From NCBI RefSeq assembly GCF_030545015.1, contig NZ_CP120653.1:1116001-1180000 (forward strand): a DNA stretch of 64,000 bases. The letters are read 5' to 3'. This document shows, in pieces, positions 27,694 through 33,896 of the stretch (its first letter is position 1; each line of letters opens with the position of its first letter). The translations under genes were made by a program, and so were the position numbers. The notes below the pieces were generated by a model. The model made no database searches. It saw only the letters and a program-made list of their open reading frames with translations, and was not told the origin of the DNA. Source of the DNA: Myroides sp. JBRI-B21084. GTDB taxonomy: Bacteria; Bacteroidota; Bacteroidia; Flavobacteriales; Flavobacteriaceae.

Positions 27694-28083
27694 TTAATCT
27701 TTAATAACCTTTGTAGGGTTTTTATCTTTATCTAGCGCAACAAAAGTAAATTCACCATTTATTGCTAAGTATCGTATATCTGTGTACATTTCTTCAATAT
27801 AAATTTCAACCGAAACCTTTAAGCTTTTGTTACCAACGTGAGTCACTTTTCCTATTAACTCCACAATAGTTCCTGCCGGAATAGGTTTGGTAAAATCTAT
27901 TTTATCCGATGAAACCGTAACCATCATTTGTCTTGAAAAACGAGTGGCAGTAATAAAGGCAACTTCGTCCATCATATGCATAGCAGTTCCACCAAAAAGG
28001 GTATCGTAATGATTGGTAGTATTAGGAAAAACGGCTTTAAAAATTCGTGTTTCACTGTTTTTAATTCTTTCTTCTAATGTCAT
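27694..28083 (-). CDS. Acyl-CoA thioesterase, hot-dog fold (YciA/BACH-like)
   Basis: The 129-residue single hot-dog domain has FPNTTNHYDTLFGGTAMHMMDEVAFI, matching the active-site Asn/Asp region of the YciA and BFIT/BACH group, and IDFTKPIPAGTIVELIGKV. It hydrolyses acyl-CoA to fatty acid and CoA, probably as a hexamer, and its chain-length preference is unknown. It lies 10 nt behind nrdA and may share the riboswitch-controlled transcript, which would be a metabolic oddity. Confidence 0.88.
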   Translation of the reverse strand: MTLEERIKNSETRIFKAVFPNTTNHYDTLFGGTAMHMMDEVAFITATRFSRQMMVTVSSDKIDFTKPIPAGTIVELIGKVTHVGNKSLKVSVEIYIEEMYTDIRYLAINGEFTFVALDKDKNPTKVIKD

Positions 28084-28093
28084 TTTTTTAAAA

Positions 28094-29740
28094 TTAAGCT
28101 TCGCAACTTGAACAAGTTACTAAATTATTTACAAATTCTTTTGAAACACTTTGGCTGCGTTGATAATACAATGTTTTTACGCCCAATTTCCAAGCTTCTA
28201 TTAACAAACGGTTTACTTCTTTAACGGGTAAATTAGCAGGTATGTTTAAGTTTAAACTTTGCGCTTGATCAATGTATTTTTGGCGAATTGAAGCTTGCAA
28301 AATAATTTCGTACTGACTAATTTCTTTAAATGTTTTAAAAACATCTTTTTCTTCTTGACTTAATTCTGATAAATGTTGAACACTACCGTGATTAAGCATA
28401 ATGCTTCGCCAGGTTTCTTCGGTATCTAAGCCTTTTTTTTCTAATAAATCTTTTAGATATTTATTTTTTCGCATAAAGTTTCCTTTTGCTAAGCCAGCTT
28501 TGTAATAATTGCTACTAAAAGGTTCAATTCCGGGCGATGTTTGTCCTAAAATTGCCGATGATGATGTAGTAGGTGCAATAGCTAATAAAGTAGTATTTCT
28601 TCTGCCATAACCTTTTAAAACAGATGGTTCACCATAAATTCGAGCCAAATCTTGCGATGCTTTTAAAGCTTTTTCTTCTATTTCTTTAAAAATTTTATTG
28701 GTAAGCATTTTTGCTTCTAAACTTTCAAAAGCAATCATGTTTTTTTGTAAGTATGAATGCCAACCCATAACACCCAAACCTAGTGCACGGTGGTTTTTTG
28801 CAAAATCATGTGCCGATTTTAAGTAATAATTCCCTTCTGTTTTAGCGGTAAATTCACTAATTACAGCATCTAAAAAGTAAGTGGCTAATTTTACGGCTTC
28901 GGTATCTTTCCATTCATCATATAATTCTAAATTCATTGATGATAAACAACATACAAACGATTCTTCTTTATTAGAAGGTAAAGCAATTTCTGAACATAAA
29001 TTACTTGCGTAAATTTGCATTTCTTTGTCTTTGTAAACTTCTGGTTTATTACGGTTTACGTTGTCTGTGAAAAATAAGTACGGTAGGCCTTTTTGTTGAC
29101 GGCTTTCTAGTACTTTAGCCCAAACTTCGCGTTTTTCTTGGTCGCCATCTATCATATCTTGCATCCAATAATCGGGAACGCAAACACCGTAAAATAAATT
29201 TTGTATAGGATTTCCAATGTTTTTAATATCTAAAAACTCTTTAATATCATCGTGGTCAATATCTAAATAAGCTGCAAAAGCACCCCTGCGTACACCACCT
29301 TGCGATATGGTGTCCATAGCTGTATCAAACAATTTCATAAAACTTACCGCACCACTGCTTTTTCCGTTATCGGTTACAGCGCTTCCGCGCTCGCGTAATT
29401 CACCAAAATAGCCACTTGTACCACCGCCAATTTTAGTTTGCATAATTACCTCGCCTAATTTATGCGTAATGCCTTCAATATTATCGGGTACATAAACGTT
29501 AAAGCACGAAATAGGTAAACCGCGTTCGGTGCCCATATTTGCCCAAATAGGCGATGATAAACTCATCCAGCCTTTTTCAATCATTTCAATAAAAGCCTCG
29601 GCAAGTTCGGGTTTATAAAGTTGCTTTGCAGCTGCGTTTGCAATGCGTTCAATTGCTTTTTGCGTGGTTTCACCTTTAAGTAAATAACCACGGTTTAATA
29701 TTTGTTCGCTTTCTTCGTTAAGCCACCATAATCTTTCCAT
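28094..29740 (-). CDS. nrdA: Class I ribonucleotide reductase, large (alpha) subunit, short form
   Basis: This 548-residue catalytic subunit reduces NDPs to dNDPs with NrdB. The radical and redox residues are visible: Cys79 in LPISCFN, Cys249 and Glu251 in SNLCSEI (thiyl-radical Cys and Glu), Cys264/265 in FVCCLSS, and the C-terminal redox pair Cys543/Cys546 in VTCSSCEA. It is some 200 residues shorter than E. coli NrdA because the N-terminal ATP-cone is missing, so dATP control of overall activity is not expected here. It follows nrdB by 20 nt and lies under a cobalamin riboswitch. Confidence 0.93.
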   Translation of the reverse strand: MERLWWLNEESEQILNRGYLLKGETTQKAIERIANAAAKQLYKPELAEAFIEMIEKGWMSLSSPIWANMGTERGLPISCFNVYVPDNIEGITHKLGEVIMQTKIGGGTSGYFGELRERGSAVTDNGKSSGAVSFMKLFDTAMDTISQGGVRRGAFAAYLDIDHDDIKEFLDIKNIGNPIQNLFYGVCVPDYWMQDMIDGDQEKREVWAKVLESRQQKGLPYLFFTDNVNRNKPEVYKDKEMQIYASNLCSEIALPSNKEESFVCCLSSMNLELYDEWKDTEAVKLATYFLDAVISEFTAKTEGNYYLKSAHDFAKNHRALGLGVMGWHSYLQKNMIAFESLEAKMLTNKIFKEIEEKALKASQDLARIYGEPSVLKGYGRRNTTLLAIAPTTSSSAILGQTSPGIEPFSSNYYKAGLAKGNFMRKNKYLKDLLEKKGLDTEETWRSIMLNHGSVQHLSELSQEEKDVFKTFKEISQYEIILQASIRQKYIDQAQSLNLNIPANLPVKEVNRLLIEAWKLGVKTLYYQRSQSVSKEFVNNLVTCSSCEA

Positions 29741-29760
29741 AATTATTGTTTTTTTTTGAA

Positions 29761-30735
29761 TTAAAATAAATCGTCGGCAGTAATACTTTTATCGTGTTTG
29801 GTATAATCAACAGGGCGTTTAGCAAAAAAATCGTCTAAACTATTTGCAAAAATTTCTTCTTCAAACCAAATCATGGGTTGGTAGGCATCGTTGTTCACAA
29901 AAAATAATTTGCGTAACCCAATTTTAACCAAACTTTCGTCTAAACGAAATTTCATAAAGTTTAATAAATTGTTTTTTGAAATGGTTTCAAGTTCGCCATA
30001 TTCAAAAATCCAATCTAAAATTTCGCTTTCGATTTCAATAGATTCCTTTACAATTTCGTTTATTTCGTTAACAGTTGCTTCATCAAAAAAATCAGGAAAT
30101 TCTTCTTTAATTTTATTAATGGTAAAAATACCAGCATTTGCATGAATTTGTTCGTCTACCGATGTCCATGCAATAATATTACTTACATTTTTCATGGCAC
30201 CTTTAAAGCGTGTAAACGATAAAATAATAGCAAATTGACTGAAAAGCGATACGTTTTCTATTAAAATGGTAAACAAAATCAAAGATTTTAAATAATCTTT
30301 TTTGTTTTCGGCTTTTGAATGTTTTAAAGCATTTGAAAGATAATCGATGCGTTTTTTTATCACCGGAATTTCAATTACATTTTCAAAAGCGTTGTTATAG
30401 CCTAAAACTTCAAGTAAACGCGAATACGCTTCGGAATGGCGAAATTCACATTCGGCAAACGTGCTTCCCAAACCATTAAATTCGGGCTTAGGTAAGTGTA
30501 AATACAAATTGCCCCAAAATGTTTTTACGTTTACTTCAATTTGGGCAATAGCAAGTAAACTGCGTTTTACAATTTCTTGTTCTATTGGTGAAAGATGTGA
30601 ATGAAAATCTTGAATATCGGCTGTGAAATCAACTTCAGAATGTACCCAAAACGATTTGTTAATAGCGTTTGTAAACTCTAAAATTTCTGGATACTCAAAA
30701 GGTTTGTAATTAATACGTTTGGTAAAAATACTCAT
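29761..30735 (-). CDS. nrdB: Class I ribonucleotide reductase, small (beta) subunit
   Basis: The 324-residue ferritin-like subunit holds the dimetal site and radical. Metal ligands are Glu67, Glu97, His100, Glu160, Glu195 and His198 (ECEFRH, LIENV, DEQIH). Tyr104 sits four residues after His100, as in the tyrosyl-radical position, so a tyrosyl radical is likely. Oxygen is needed to assemble it. It is the first gene of nrdB-nrdA, with a long leader (about 196 nt) holding a B12 riboswitch. It thus provides the B12-independent way to make deoxynucleotides. Confidence 0.95.
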   Translation of the reverse strand: MSIFTKRINYKPFEYPEILEFTNAINKSFWVHSEVDFTADIQDFHSHLSPIEQEIVKRSLLAIAQIEVNVKTFWGNLYLHLPKPEFNGLGSTFAECEFRHSEAYSRLLEVLGYNNAFENVIEIPVIKKRIDYLSNALKHSKAENKKDYLKSLILFTILIENVSLFSQFAIILSFTRFKGAMKNVSNIIAWTSVDEQIHANAGIFTINKIKEEFPDFFDEATVNEINEIVKESIEIESEILDWIFEYGELETISKNNLLNFMKFRLDESLVKIGLRKLFFVNNDAYQPMIWFEEEIFANSLDDFFAKRPVDYTKHDKSITADDLF

Positions 30736-30784
30736 GCTTTAATTTTTTATATGGAACAATTTGTGTAAACAGATAAGAAAAATC

Positions 30785-30825
30785 CATATAAAAAAAGAAG
30801 GTTTCTTAGCAGTTTACTTTATATG
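30785..30825 (-). promoter_or_regulatory. Candidate expression platform of the cobalamin riboswitch
   Basis: In the minus-strand leader between aptamer and nrdB, CATATAAA (30818-30825) pairs with TTTATATG (30785-30792), enclosing an inner AAGAA-ACC-TTCTT hairpin (30795-30807) followed by a T-run (30790-30796). The nearby GTTGC can pair with GCAAC of the aptamer core. Terminator or pairing switch is inferred from structure only. Confidence 0.45.
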
Positions 30826-30838
30826 CGAAAGCAACGCT

Positions 30839-30932
30839 TTTTTTACAAGAGGTCTGACTTTTAAGTGGTTTGCTTAATTTACAGTTGCGCAACAGTTCAA
30901 GATTTACACTTGATTCTCTATTTTGTAAAAAA
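30839..30932 (-). ncRNA. Cobalamin (B12) riboswitch aptamer in the nrdB leader
   Basis: On the minus strand, TTTTTTACAA (30923-30932) and TTGTAAAAAA (30839-30848) form a 10-bp P1 stem. Between them are the conserved B12 elements in order: AATAGAGAATCAAGTG (GGGAA-like, then P4 CAAG/CTTG with TAAAT between), GAACTG, the core GCGCAACTGTAA (30879-30890), a TTAAG/CTTAA hairpin, and AGTCAGACC (30851-30859) at the 3' side. This order is that of the Rfam cobalamin class. At 94 nt it is compact, lacking large peripheral stems. It sits in front of the B12-independent reductase, next to the B12-dependent one. Confidence 0.88.
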
Positions 30933-30938
30933 TGTTAT

Positions 30939-30946
30939 CAAATTTA
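30939..30946 (-). promoter_or_regulatory. -7 promoter box for the riboswitch-nrdB-nrdA transcript
   Basis: The minus strand reads TAAATTTG, placing the transcription start near 30932, exactly where the P1 stem of the aptamer begins. No clear -33 box is seen. Confidence 0.6.
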
Positions 30947-31325
30947 GTTTTTATATTTTACTTTTCGATGCTTTTTTTTAATGAAATTATGAACAATTTT
31001 TGTTTATAACCTTATTTGCTTGATTTGCAATACTTTTTAATTTTTTAATTTTTAATTTCTTATTAATATTAAAAAAATGTAAACTTTTTTACTTTTAGTT
31101 TTTTTTAAACTGTTGATTTGTAGTTTTTTATTGTGTAATTTTTGTAAACTTTTAAAAATAAGTAGTTATTAACGCTTGTTGATAACTTTTATTTTTTTTT
31201 GAAATAAAAATTATTTTTAAAGCAAAAAGTTTGTAATTTTATAAAACAAACAAATGAAATAAGAACCTTGTTTAGTTGTTTGTTTTTGAATAGTTTAAAC
31301 CGATCTACAAATTTAAAAATATACT
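30947..31325 (+). other. AT-rich upstream region of nrdJ
   Basis: This 379-bp stretch holds no gene. It is very AT-rich with many T- and A-runs. A possible promoter for nrdJ is TTTG (31117-31120) with TAATTTTTG (31136-31144). A 22-bp imperfect palindrome GTTATTAACG-CT-TGTTGATAAC lies at 31165-31186, downstream of that candidate and well placed for an operator. It does not match the NrdR box. Confidence 0.4.
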
Positions 31326-33896
31326 ATGGAAATAGCACCCGACGTACTAGAGGCAAAAAAAACATACACCAATGAGGAAGCCATTAACGCATCAACAGCA
31401 TATTTTAAAGGCGATGTTTTAGCAGCTACAGTTTTTGTAAATAAATATGCGTTGAAAGATTCGCACGGAGCTATTTACGAAAAAACTCCTGATGATATGC
31501 ACCGCCGAATTGCTTCAGAAATTGCACGTGTTGAAGCAAAATATGCAAATTCGTTAAGTGAAAATCAAATTTTTGATTTAATTAAAAACTTTACCTACAT
31601 AATTCCGCAAGGAAGCCCAATGACGGGTATAGGTAATCCTTTTCAAATAGCTTCTTTATCAAACTGTTTTGTGATTGGTAACAATGGTGAAAGTGATTCG
31701 TACGGTGGTATCATGAAAATTGATCAAGAACAAGTACAGTTAATGAAACGCCGTGGTGGTGTAGGTCACGATTTATCACATATTCGCCCAAAAGGATCAC
31801 CTGTTAAAAACTCCGCTTTAACATCAACAGGTTTGGTTCCTTTTATGGAGCGTTTTTCAAATTCAACTCGCGAAGTTGCCCAAGACGGTCGTCGTGGCGC
31901 TTTAATGCTTTCAGTATCTATTAATCATCCAGATGCAGAAGGGTTTATCGATGCAAAATTAGAACAAGGCAAAGTTACAGGAGCAAATGTTTCGGTACGT
32001 ATCGATGATACTTTTATGCAAGCTGTAAAAAACAATACCTTATATACACAGAAGTATCCTATTTTTTCACAAAATCCTAAATATTCAAAAGATTTAAATG
32101 CAGCAGAATTATGGAAAAAAATAGTTCACAACGCTTGGAAATCTGCAGAACCAGGAATTTTATTTTGGGATACAATTATAAATGAATCGTTGCCTGACTG
32201 TTATGCAGATTTAGGTTACAAAACCCTATCAACAAACCCTTGTGGTGAAATTCCTTTGTGTGCTTATGACTCTTGCCGTTTGTTAGCAATAAATTTATTT
32301 TCTTACGTTGTAAATCCATTTACAGCCGATGCGTATTTTGATTTTGAGTTATTTAAAAAGCACGTTGCCATTGCGCAACGTATGATGGATGATATTATTG
32401 ATTTAGAATTAGAAAAAATTGATACGATTATTGAGAAAATTGACGAAGATCCAGAAGATGCTGAAGTAAAGCGTATAGAGCGTAATTTATGGATTGAAAT
32501 TCGTAAAAAAGCCGATGAAGGTCGTAGAACAGGTGTAGGAATTACTGCAGAAGGCGATATGTTAGCAGCTTTAGGCATTCGTTACGGTTCTAAAGAAGGT
32601 AACGAATTTTCAGTTAACTTACACAAAACATTAGCTTTAGCGGCTTATCGTTCATCGGTAGAAATGGCTAAAGAACGTGGTGCTTTTGCAATTTTTGATG
32701 CTAAACGAGAAGTAAAGAACCCGTTTGTATTGCGAATTAAAGAAAACGATCCGCAGTTATTTAACGATATGCAAGAATACGGACGTAGAAATATTGCATT
32801 GTTAACTATTGCTCCAACTGGTTCAACATCAATTTTATCGCAAACAACTTCGGGTATCGAACCTGTTTTCTTACCTGTTTATAAACGTCGTAGAAAAGTA
32901 AATCCAAACGATAAAGATGTACGTATTGATTTTGTTGATGAAGTAGGTGATTCATGGGAAGAATACGTGGTTTTTCACCATAAATTTAAAATGTGGATGG
33001 AAGTTAATGGAATTGATACCAATAAAAACTATTCGCAAGAAGAAATTAATACGTTAATTGAACAATCACCTTATTACAAAGCAACTTCTAACGATGTAGA
33101 TTATATTAGTAAAGTTGAAATGCAAGGTGCTATTCAAAAGTGGGTAGATCACTCAATTTCTGTAACAATTAATGTTCCAAACGATGTTACCGAAGAATTA
33201 GTTGGACAATTGTATATGAAAGCGTGGGAAGTAGGTTGTAAAGGGGTAACCGTTTACCGCGATGGTTCACGTTCGGGCGTTTTAATTTCAAACGATAAAA
33301 AAGAAGAAAAGAAAAAGACCGAAAACACCAATGAAGACGAAGTTTCTTTTCCTACTAAACGTCCGCATGCTTTAGCTTGTGATATTGTACGTTTTCAGAA
33401 TAACAAAGAAAAATGGATTGCGTTTATTGGTAAAATTGACGATAGACCTTACGAAATTTTTACAGGTTTAGCCGATGATGAAGATGGTATTTTATTACCA
33501 CGTTGGGTAAATGATGGTTTTATAATTAAAAATCGTGATGAAAAAGGAAATTCTAGATACGATTTTCAATATGTAAATCAACGAGGCTACAAAACAACTA
33601 TCGAAGGATTGTCGTACCGTTTTGATCCTGTTTTCTGGAACTACGCTAAATTAATTTCTGGAACATTACGCCACGGAATGAAAATTGAAAACGTGGTAGA
33701 TTTAATTAACTCGTTACAATTAGATAACGAATCAATTAATACATGGAAAAACGGAGTTGCACGTGCTTTAAAACGATTTGTACCCGATGGTACCGAAGCG
33801 AACGGCCAAAAATGCAGCAACTGTAATTCAACTAACTTAATGTACCAAGAAGGTTGTTTAACATGTAAAGATTGTGGTTCATCAAAATGCGGATAA
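31326..33896 (+). CDS. nrdJ: Adenosylcobalamin-dependent (class II) ribonucleotide reductase
   Basis: The 856-residue protein is a single-chain reductase that makes its thiyl radical from adenosylcobalamin and needs no oxygen or small subunit. The pattern QIASLSNCFVIGNN (Cys114), the STNPCGEIPL radical motif and NIALLTIAPTGSTSILSQTTSGIEP in the barrel are class II. The C-terminal part (about 690-856) has the domain with KRPHALACDI and a four-Cys zinc-ribbon-like end with C-x2-C pairs (CSNCNS, CLTCKDC) and a final SSKCG. No ATP-cone is seen at the N-terminus. It diverges from nrdB-nrdA. Confidence 0.94.
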   Translation: MEIAPDVLEAKKTYTNEEAINASTAYFKGDVLAATVFVNKYALKDSHGAIYEKTPDDMHRRIASEIARVEAKYANSLSENQIFDLIKNFTYIIPQGSPMTGIGNPFQIASLSNCFVIGNNGESDSYGGIMKIDQEQVQLMKRRGGVGHDLSHIRPKGSPVKNSALTSTGLVPFMERFSNSTREVAQDGRRGALMLSVSINHPDAEGFIDAKLEQGKVTGANVSVRIDDTFMQAVKNNTLYTQKYPIFSQNPKYSKDLNAAELWKKIVHNAWKSAEPGILFWDTIINESLPDCYADLGYKTLSTNPCGEIPLCAYDSCRLLAINLFSYVVNPFTADAYFDFELFKKHVAIAQRMMDDIIDLELEKIDTIIEKIDEDPEDAEVKRIERNLWIEIRKKADEGRRTGVGITAEGDMLAALGIRYGSKEGNEFSVNLHKTLALAAYRSSVEMAKERGAFAIFDAKREVKNPFVLRIKENDPQLFNDMQEYGRRNIALLTIAPTGSTSILSQTTSGIEPVFLPVYKRRRKVNPNDKDVRIDFVDEVGDSWEEYVVFHHKFKMWMEVNGIDTNKNYSQEEINTLIEQSPYYKATSNDVDYISKVEMQGAIQKWVDHSISVTINVPNDVTEELVGQLYMKAWEVGCKGVTVYRDGSRSGVLISNDKKEEKKKTENTNEDEVSFPTKRPHALACDIVRFQNNKEKWIAFIGKIDDRPYEIFTGLADDEDGILLPRWVNDGFIIKNRDEKGNSRYDFQYVNQRGYKTTIEGLSYRFDPVFWNYAKLISGTLRHGMKIENVVDLINSLQLDNESINTWKNGVARALKRFVPDGTEANGQKCSNCNSTNLMYQEGCLTCKDCGSSKCG

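Follow-up and report, generated by a model that had tools for sequence, protein, structure and literature searches.

The window, that is, the whole stretch of 64,000 nucleotides that was analysed, carries genes for a class I and a class II ribonucleotide reductase. On the minus strand nrdB is followed by nrdA and then by a gene for an acyl-CoA thioesterase, separated by 20 and 10 bases respectively, and the thioesterase gene presumably lies on the same transcript as nrdA; nrdJ diverges from this group on the plus strand. The genes are as follows.

27694..28083, minus strand: acyl-CoA thioesterase gene (4HBT), 10 bases 3' of nrdA (PF03061, Pfam; homologues stand behind cobalamin riboswitches elsewhere)
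28094..29740, minus strand: nrdA, of the TIGR02510 / PRK09102 type, 548 aa (TIGR02510 above cut-off, and Pfam)
29761..30735, minus strand: nrdB, class I ribonucleotide reductase small subunit, 324 aa (PF00268, Pfam)
31326..33896, plus strand: nrdJ, adenosylcobalamin-dependent class II reductase, divergent (TIGR02504, 560.8 bits, cut-off 399.95)

The gene calls of the original prediction were right, NrdJ (TIGR02504) and NrdA (TIGR02510) being recognised above cut-off and NrdB and the 4HBT thioesterase by Pfam. The nearest named relatives of the NrdB locus belong to Paenimyroides. The genome to which the window belongs (2.5 Mb) encodes one NrdB and one NrdJ; it gave no match to NrdD at E<=0.01, and its best match to NrdR, which contains an internal stop, scored 18.8 bits against a cut-off of 124.65, so that none is above cut-off. 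With such a gene content, a switch in front of nrdB could decide which reductase gets made. Additionally, no ATP-cone domain was detected by Pfam in NrdA or NrdB (28094-30735 of the window), and overall-activity control through such a cone therefore seems to be absent.

The nrdB leader comprises positions 30735-30946 of the minus strand, with the nrdB start codon at 30735, and it is in this leader that the original prediction had placed a cobalamin riboswitch. An Rfam search at the gathering threshold gave no cobalamin match within the window. The search by E-value detected RF01482 (AdoCbl) at 30812-30943 on the minus strand with 41.9 bits (E 2.7e-6), a significant match and yet one below the gathering score of 50 bits. 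In likeness to RF01482, the match spans the whole model (positions 1-149) and is the best-scoring of clan CL00101; unlike that family, the leader falls under the gathering score, is short and is A+T-rich, and a riboswitch RNA is thus missed here by the standard annotation cut-off. Elsewhere in the 2.5 Mb genome RF01482 has no match at E<=1, and the RF00174 score of the nrdB leader is 21.6 bits. The only further cobalamin riboswitch that RF00174 detects in this genome precedes a TonB-dependent receptor. Amongst relatives, the nrdB leader of the closely related locus L004 reaches 51.7 bits with RF01482, above the gathering score, and that of locus L021 passes the RF00174 cut-off with 101.6 bits. 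Among the named records, eight nrdB leaders of the compact kind, their places assigned to nrdB by coordinates, exceed the RF00174 cut-off of 31.5; leaders above it include those of Albibacterium, Salinimicrobium, Brumimicrobium, Acidiluteibacter and others. The long RF00174 form is seen in the nrdB leaders of L099, L126 and the relative L021.

A covariance model, R1, was built from 21 leaders, which match it by construction. The parts of the aptamer and a putative promoter box are listed below.

30939..30946, minus strand: TAAATTTG, putative -7 box of the form TAnnTTTG, 6 bases before P1 (from the sequence)
30812..30943, minus strand: compact cobalamin (AdoCbl-type) riboswitch aptamer with P13 hairpin (RF01482 41.9 bits; R1 105.1 bits, as a training sequence)
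30923..30932, minus strand: P1 5' arm, pairs with 30839-30848 (10/10 pairs)
30898..30912, minus strand: P4 hairpin, 30909-30912 with 30898-30901 (changes on both sides at 3/4 pairs; 100% of cells paired)
30888..30891, minus strand: L5 UGCG, proposed kissing partner of L13 (complementary to 30824-30827)
30854..30884, minus strand: P6 region, CTG 30882-30884 with CAG 30854-30856, including the AGTCAGACC core (RF01482 match, covariation)
30839..30848, minus strand: P1 3' arm (10/10 pairs with the 5' arm)
30814..30834, minus strand: P13 hairpin, 30828-30834 with 30814-30820, loop CGCA 30824-30827 (covariation alignment)

All four aptamer motifs quoted in the original prediction were found on the minus strand in the order given there, and the perfect 10-bp P1 is indeed present, TTTTTTACAA (30932-30923) pairing with TTGTAAAAAA (30848-30839) at 10/10 positions. 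The leader is kept in relatives and its stems covary: in an alignment of 21 nrdB leaders from Bacteroidota, 95.0% of the 521 cells hold a standard pair at the named positions, P1 standing outside that count, and changes on both sides occur at 10 of 25 pairs, a covariation score reached by none of 500 shuffles. In P6 the outer pairs are invariant and the inner stem covaries (5/5 pairs, 83.8% of cells paired); P13 is paired in 97.3% of cells, with changes on both sides at 2/7 pairs. The L5-L13 contact shows GCG:CGC complementarity in all 21 leaders, without covariation, since three of its four pairs are invariant and the fourth is unpaired in 5/21. The best P1 helix has 8-10 pairs of differing sequence in 12 of the 21 leaders (that of L063 is probably spurious) and 5-7 pairs in the other nine, a count made with no shuffle control. 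The exact TAnnTTTG pattern, which we take to be the Bacteroidota -7 promoter element, recurs at the corresponding position in six of the 11 aligned close leaders (the window, L003 and L049-L052). The leader was found to hold a conserved core of the cobalamin class (CL00101) with supported P4, P6 and P1 stems and, judged by its sequence, the earlier observation of a cobalamin riboswitch in front of nrdB is confirmed.

The occurrence of the riboswitch was followed in genomes with NrdB of this type, taken from named records as the best 80 of 166 relatives. R1 finds a riboswitch at nrdB in 22 of these 80 loci, 18 of which had trained the model; they belong to Paenimyroides, Neoflavobacterium, Saprospiraceae, Albibacterium, Salinimicrobium, Brumimicrobium, Acidiluteibacter, strain Ap0902 and three MAGs (Crocinitomicaceae L099, the partly degenerate L118 and Chitinophagaceae L126). 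The search for nrdJ covered 50 of these 80 genomes; the other 30 are mostly Flavobacterium proper, and R1 detected no nrdB riboswitch in them. Within the 50, nrdJ is present in 27, and the riboswitch precedes nrdB in 21 of the 27 genomes with nrdJ as against 1 of the 23 without (Fisher p 8e-8, relatedness uncorrected). The B12-dependent counterpart, which in the window is nrdJ itself, is thus found in the same genome in 21 of the 22 riboswitch-nrdB genomes of the 50, the one riboswitch without a detected nrdJ being that of the MAG L126. Six of the 50 genomes have nrdJ and no riboswitch found at nrdB (L068, L073, L089, L092, L110 and L124). No completeness values accompany these 50 genomes, and a missing nrdJ may in some of them reflect a gap in the assembly. 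A set of 100 related genomes gave a similar picture: 25 of them encode this NrdB (counted at 5e-93 or better), and the riboswitch lies at nrdB in 4 of the 5 with nrdJ and in none of the 20 without; relative G072, in which nrdJ is present, shows upstream of nrdB only a 21.1-bit R1 match. The P. viscosum genome (G027, G104) appears to be common to the 50-genome and 100-relative sets.

The divergence of nrdJ from nrdB, part of the original prediction, holds in the window and is local only. The head-to-head layout was rejected as a conserved feature because loci L054-L056 and L112 keep the riboswitch and have their nrdJ matches on other contigs.

From the P13 3' arm to the start codon, the following segments are predicted to take part in alternative pairings.

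30802..30817, minus strand: P13 3' arm and following bases, alternative partner of 30765-30780 (GTAAAC/GTTTAC and TAAGAAA/TTTCTTA complementarity)
30784..30791, minus strand: TTATATGG, predicted start-region occluding strand, pairs with CCATATAA at 30747-30754 (P13-forced fold of the window leader)
30765..30780, minus strand: anti-P13 strand, GTTTAC 30765-30770 and TTTCTTA 30774-30780 (fold without the P13 5' arm; covariation)
30747..30754, minus strand: CCATATAA, segment predicted to be occluded, upstream of the nrdB start codon at 30735 (P13-forced fold, opening cost)

In 11 close leaders the anti-P13 helix is paired in 91.9% of cells, with changes on both sides at 2/9 pairs (3 cells); shuffles were as high in 9/500 cases for changed pairs and in 0/500 for changed cells. 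The best match to L13 plus the P13 3' arm begins 34-47 bases before the start codon in 19 of the 21 leaders; taken singly, it goes beyond nearly all shuffles (<=7/300) in 10 of the 21 only. For the window leader a different strand, at -58, scores best and is equalled by 27/300 shuffles, and for L061 the best match lies at -70, at chance level.

An earlier proxy, the mean unpaired state, gave the expected direction in 18/21 leaders with many small differences, after which opening energy with shuffles was used. The bound state was approximated by forcing P13 with four L13 bases kept unpaired and the free state by removing the P13 5' arm, and the cost of opening nrdB bases -12 to +6 was compared with that of spacer shuffles (40 rounds). 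On folding, this cost is higher with P13 forced in 19 of the 21 leaders, with a mean difference of 3.06 kcal/mol, against a mean of 0.04 and a highest round of 0.33 kcal/mol for the shuffles, none of the 40 rounds being as high as the leaders; in 16/21 leaders no single shuffle of 40 matches the difference. The window leader costs 6.1 kcal/mol with P13 forced versus 4.4 (0/40 shuffles as high). The difference has the wrong sign in L003 and L049 and lies within the shuffles in L052, L061 and L119. Three Brumimicrobium leaders (L069, L086 and L119) have the start codon itself paired in the fold with P13 forced. Folding thus favours a B12-induced translational OFF control by occlusion of the start region, and repression by B12 is predicted from it.

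Very probably, expression of the nrdB-nrdA-thioesterase operon is held down under ample B12 by a compact riboswitch of the cobalamin class, whose ligand is probably AdoCbl. The sequences themselves show the aptamer with its covarying stems, the downstream alternative pairings and the near-restriction to nrdJ genomes, and the switching steps given next are what we infer. Binding of AdoCbl would stabilise the L5-L13 kissing contact and hence P13, which would reclaim the segment otherwise holding the downstream strand; the freed strand, or its neighbour, would then pair around the nrdB start codon and block translation. When B12 is lacking, P13 would open, the strand would be recaptured and NrdB and NrdA would be made, and with B12 the cell would rely on NrdJ. 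A shortage of B12 may also be when the thioesterase is needed, which would explain why its gene is under the same control. In some cobalamin riboswitches an L5-L13 kissing loop acts on the start site; the present leader resembles them in its L5-L13 complementarity, its P13 and its proposed translational output, and differs in that the downstream strand could pair with either P13/L13 or the start region. P13-L13 is also treated, for cobalamin riboswitches, in passages of PMC9600662.

The same aptamer could instead act by premature termination of transcription at the AAGAA/TTCTT hairpin and U-run (30790-30807), which the original prediction had offered as a terminator. A hairpin of five pairs does stand directly before the U-run in the window, and much of the transcription of nrdAB in Propionibacterium acnes appears to stop before the first gene, according to passages of PMC3848588. 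However, a standard terminator scan of the window leader returned no terminator-like site, a weak hairpin with a U-run was seen in 2 of the 21 leaders versus 1.7 expected from shuffles, and a stem of at least six pairs with at least three G/C was seen in none of the 21; the AAGAA/TTCTT hairpin is moreover not conserved in the close relatives aligned. The terminator reading was accordingly rejected, and control by termination appears unlikely.

It might also be argued that the riboswitch serves mainly the thioesterase or a general B12 economy, with nrdBA carried along and its repression incidental and not an isozyme switch. Thioesterase homologues with cobalamin riboswitches of their own do occur in genomes without nrdJ, but the riboswitch at nrdB tracks nrdJ, and the fetched stretch contains no thioesterase in 10 of the 22 named nrdB-riboswitch loci (L062, L063, L069, L070, L086, L099, L108, L118, L119 and L126), and we regard such a role as very unlikely. 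That the RNA is a decayed riboswitch, kin to cobalamin aptamers and no longer binding B12 in this strain, would fit a score below the gathering threshold, with RF00174 giving only 21.6 bits, and the partly degenerate look of the MAG leader L118; against this, the core motifs are intact, P1 has 10 pairs, and covarying stems and alternative pairings are kept in close relatives, which leaves decay extremely improbable. As far as sequence can show, the aptamer, its target and the isozyme logic of the original prediction hold, given the covariance match, the conserved leader and the co-occurrence with nrdJ, and repression of nrdBA by B12 is the reading that we prefer.

The thioesterase had received a passing remark in the original prediction and matters more than was implied there, as homologues lie directly behind cobalamin riboswitches elsewhere. 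A selected, non-random set of 56 riboswitch places was inspected, which includes 20 hand-picked places less three duplicates as well as the RF00174 place L246, and from which 22 nrdB-leader loci were left out. The first gene behind the riboswitch is a thioesterase homologue in 13 of these 56 places (44-76% identical to that of the window), and the second gene is one in three, behind a FabH-like gene in two (Pfam on one) and a Diphthami_syn_2 gene in the third. Genes that look like metE follow the riboswitch in eight places (by eye, with no family search), and cobT-cobS stand behind the riboswitch in 4/56 selected places (Pfam on one pair). In the 100 relatives, 30 thioesterase loci (at least 54% identity) comprise 11 with an R1 match within 1.5 kb upstream, 3 in the nrdBA operon and 16 with neither; nine of these 16, all of the window's GTDB genus, are beside tRNA genes, in a look at the neighbourhoods of 20 of the 30 loci. 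In L060, L061 and L115 the thioesterase gene sits between nrdB and nrdA, under the riboswitch. The folding test was mixed for 11 of the 13 first-gene thioesterase leaders (L194 and L200 left out), with 8/11 in the expected direction, a mean of 0.88 kcal/mol and 3/11 for which no shuffle of 40 was as high.

We infer that the thioesterase drains stalled acyl-CoA (propionyl- or methylmalonyl-CoA) when B12 runs out: the AdoCbl-dependent methylmalonyl-CoA mutase would stall, propionyl- and methylmalonyl-CoA would build up and their hydrolysis would free CoA. Genomes with a riboswitch-thioesterase pair and without nrdJ, such as G064, G077, G088 and G096, retain matches to this mutase, so that their thioesterase probably answers to another B12 enzyme. 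The mutase was rejected as a discriminating partner of the thioesterase: PF01642 matches occur in 95 of the 100 relatives, and its co-occurrence is therefore uninformative for the disposal of acyl-CoA. A wider programme of Bacteroidota for B12 scarcity, with riboswitches on genes of B12-free isozymes (nrdBA, metE) and on uptake and salvage genes and with a dedicated acyl-CoA thioesterase that hydrolyses propionyl- or methylmalonyl-CoA and has been joined to nrdBA in Paenimyroides, is a possibility that we advance tentatively; if true, the thioesterase would be the metabolite-disposal arm of the B12 regulon. The thioesterase as a recurring partner of cobalamin riboswitches is most likely the new part of this work, nothing bearing on the link having been found in the titles and abstract beginnings of a literature search that subscription journals mostly lie outside. 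The repeated pairing may shed light on the bacterial response to a block in B12-dependent acyl-CoA metabolism.

Other arrangements were seen behind cobalamin riboswitches. In L191 and L197 a FabH-like synthase stands between riboswitch and thioesterase, and our guess is that in a B12 shortage it could be primed with propionyl-CoA and so use it up. Small cysteine-rich proteins recur in L245, L253 and L254. In L248, L249, L250 and L251 (Paenimyroides and related) a second compact cobalamin riboswitch precedes cobT-cobS, genes for attachment of the lower ligand; none before cobT-cobS was found in the window's own genome.

B12 riboswitches are already known to control class I nrd operons in Streptomyces and P. 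acnes. Borovok et al. in 2006 reportedly placed the Streptomyces nrdABS class Ia operon behind a B12 riboswitch with control of transcription. The present locus is alike in having a B12 riboswitch before a class I reductase operon, and here as in Streptomyces the organism also has a class II reductase. It lies in another phylum, however, with translation control predicted in place of the transcription control reported there, and has a compact aptamer, a divergent nrdJ, a thioesterase gene after nrdA and no NrdR above cut-off. In P. acnes, passages of PMC3848588 describe the nrdAB and nrdDG operons as annotated with cobalamin riboswitches and nrdRJ as not so annotated, the likeness being that the annotated riboswitches fall on B12-independent reductase operons and not on nrdJ; unlike here, early transcript ends are in evidence there, and the operon and phylum are different (PMC3848588). 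The passages retrieved on cobalamin riboswitches and ribonucleotide reductase do not describe a nrdB case in Bacteroidota. De novo cobamide synthesis is said, in a passage of PMC8123684, to occur in only 0.6% of Bacteroidota genomes. Our prediction is that a set of Bacteroidota picks its DNA-precursor enzyme by RNA sensing of the B12 supply.

The sequence TTATCAACA, counted on either strand, is strongly enriched upstream of nrdB. Stretches of 700 bases 5' of nrdB from loci L049-L128 (the best 80 of 166, relatedness uncorrected) hold 126 copies in 56,000 bases, versus 23 in the remaining 780,634 bases of these loci. Of the 80 loci, 45 have one or more copies and 33 have two or more, the distance to the start being mostly 145-310 bases, and the intergenic region of the window has one, at 31177-31185. 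The sequence, which we take to be one base off a DnaA box, possibly points to a replication-linked control of the reductase.
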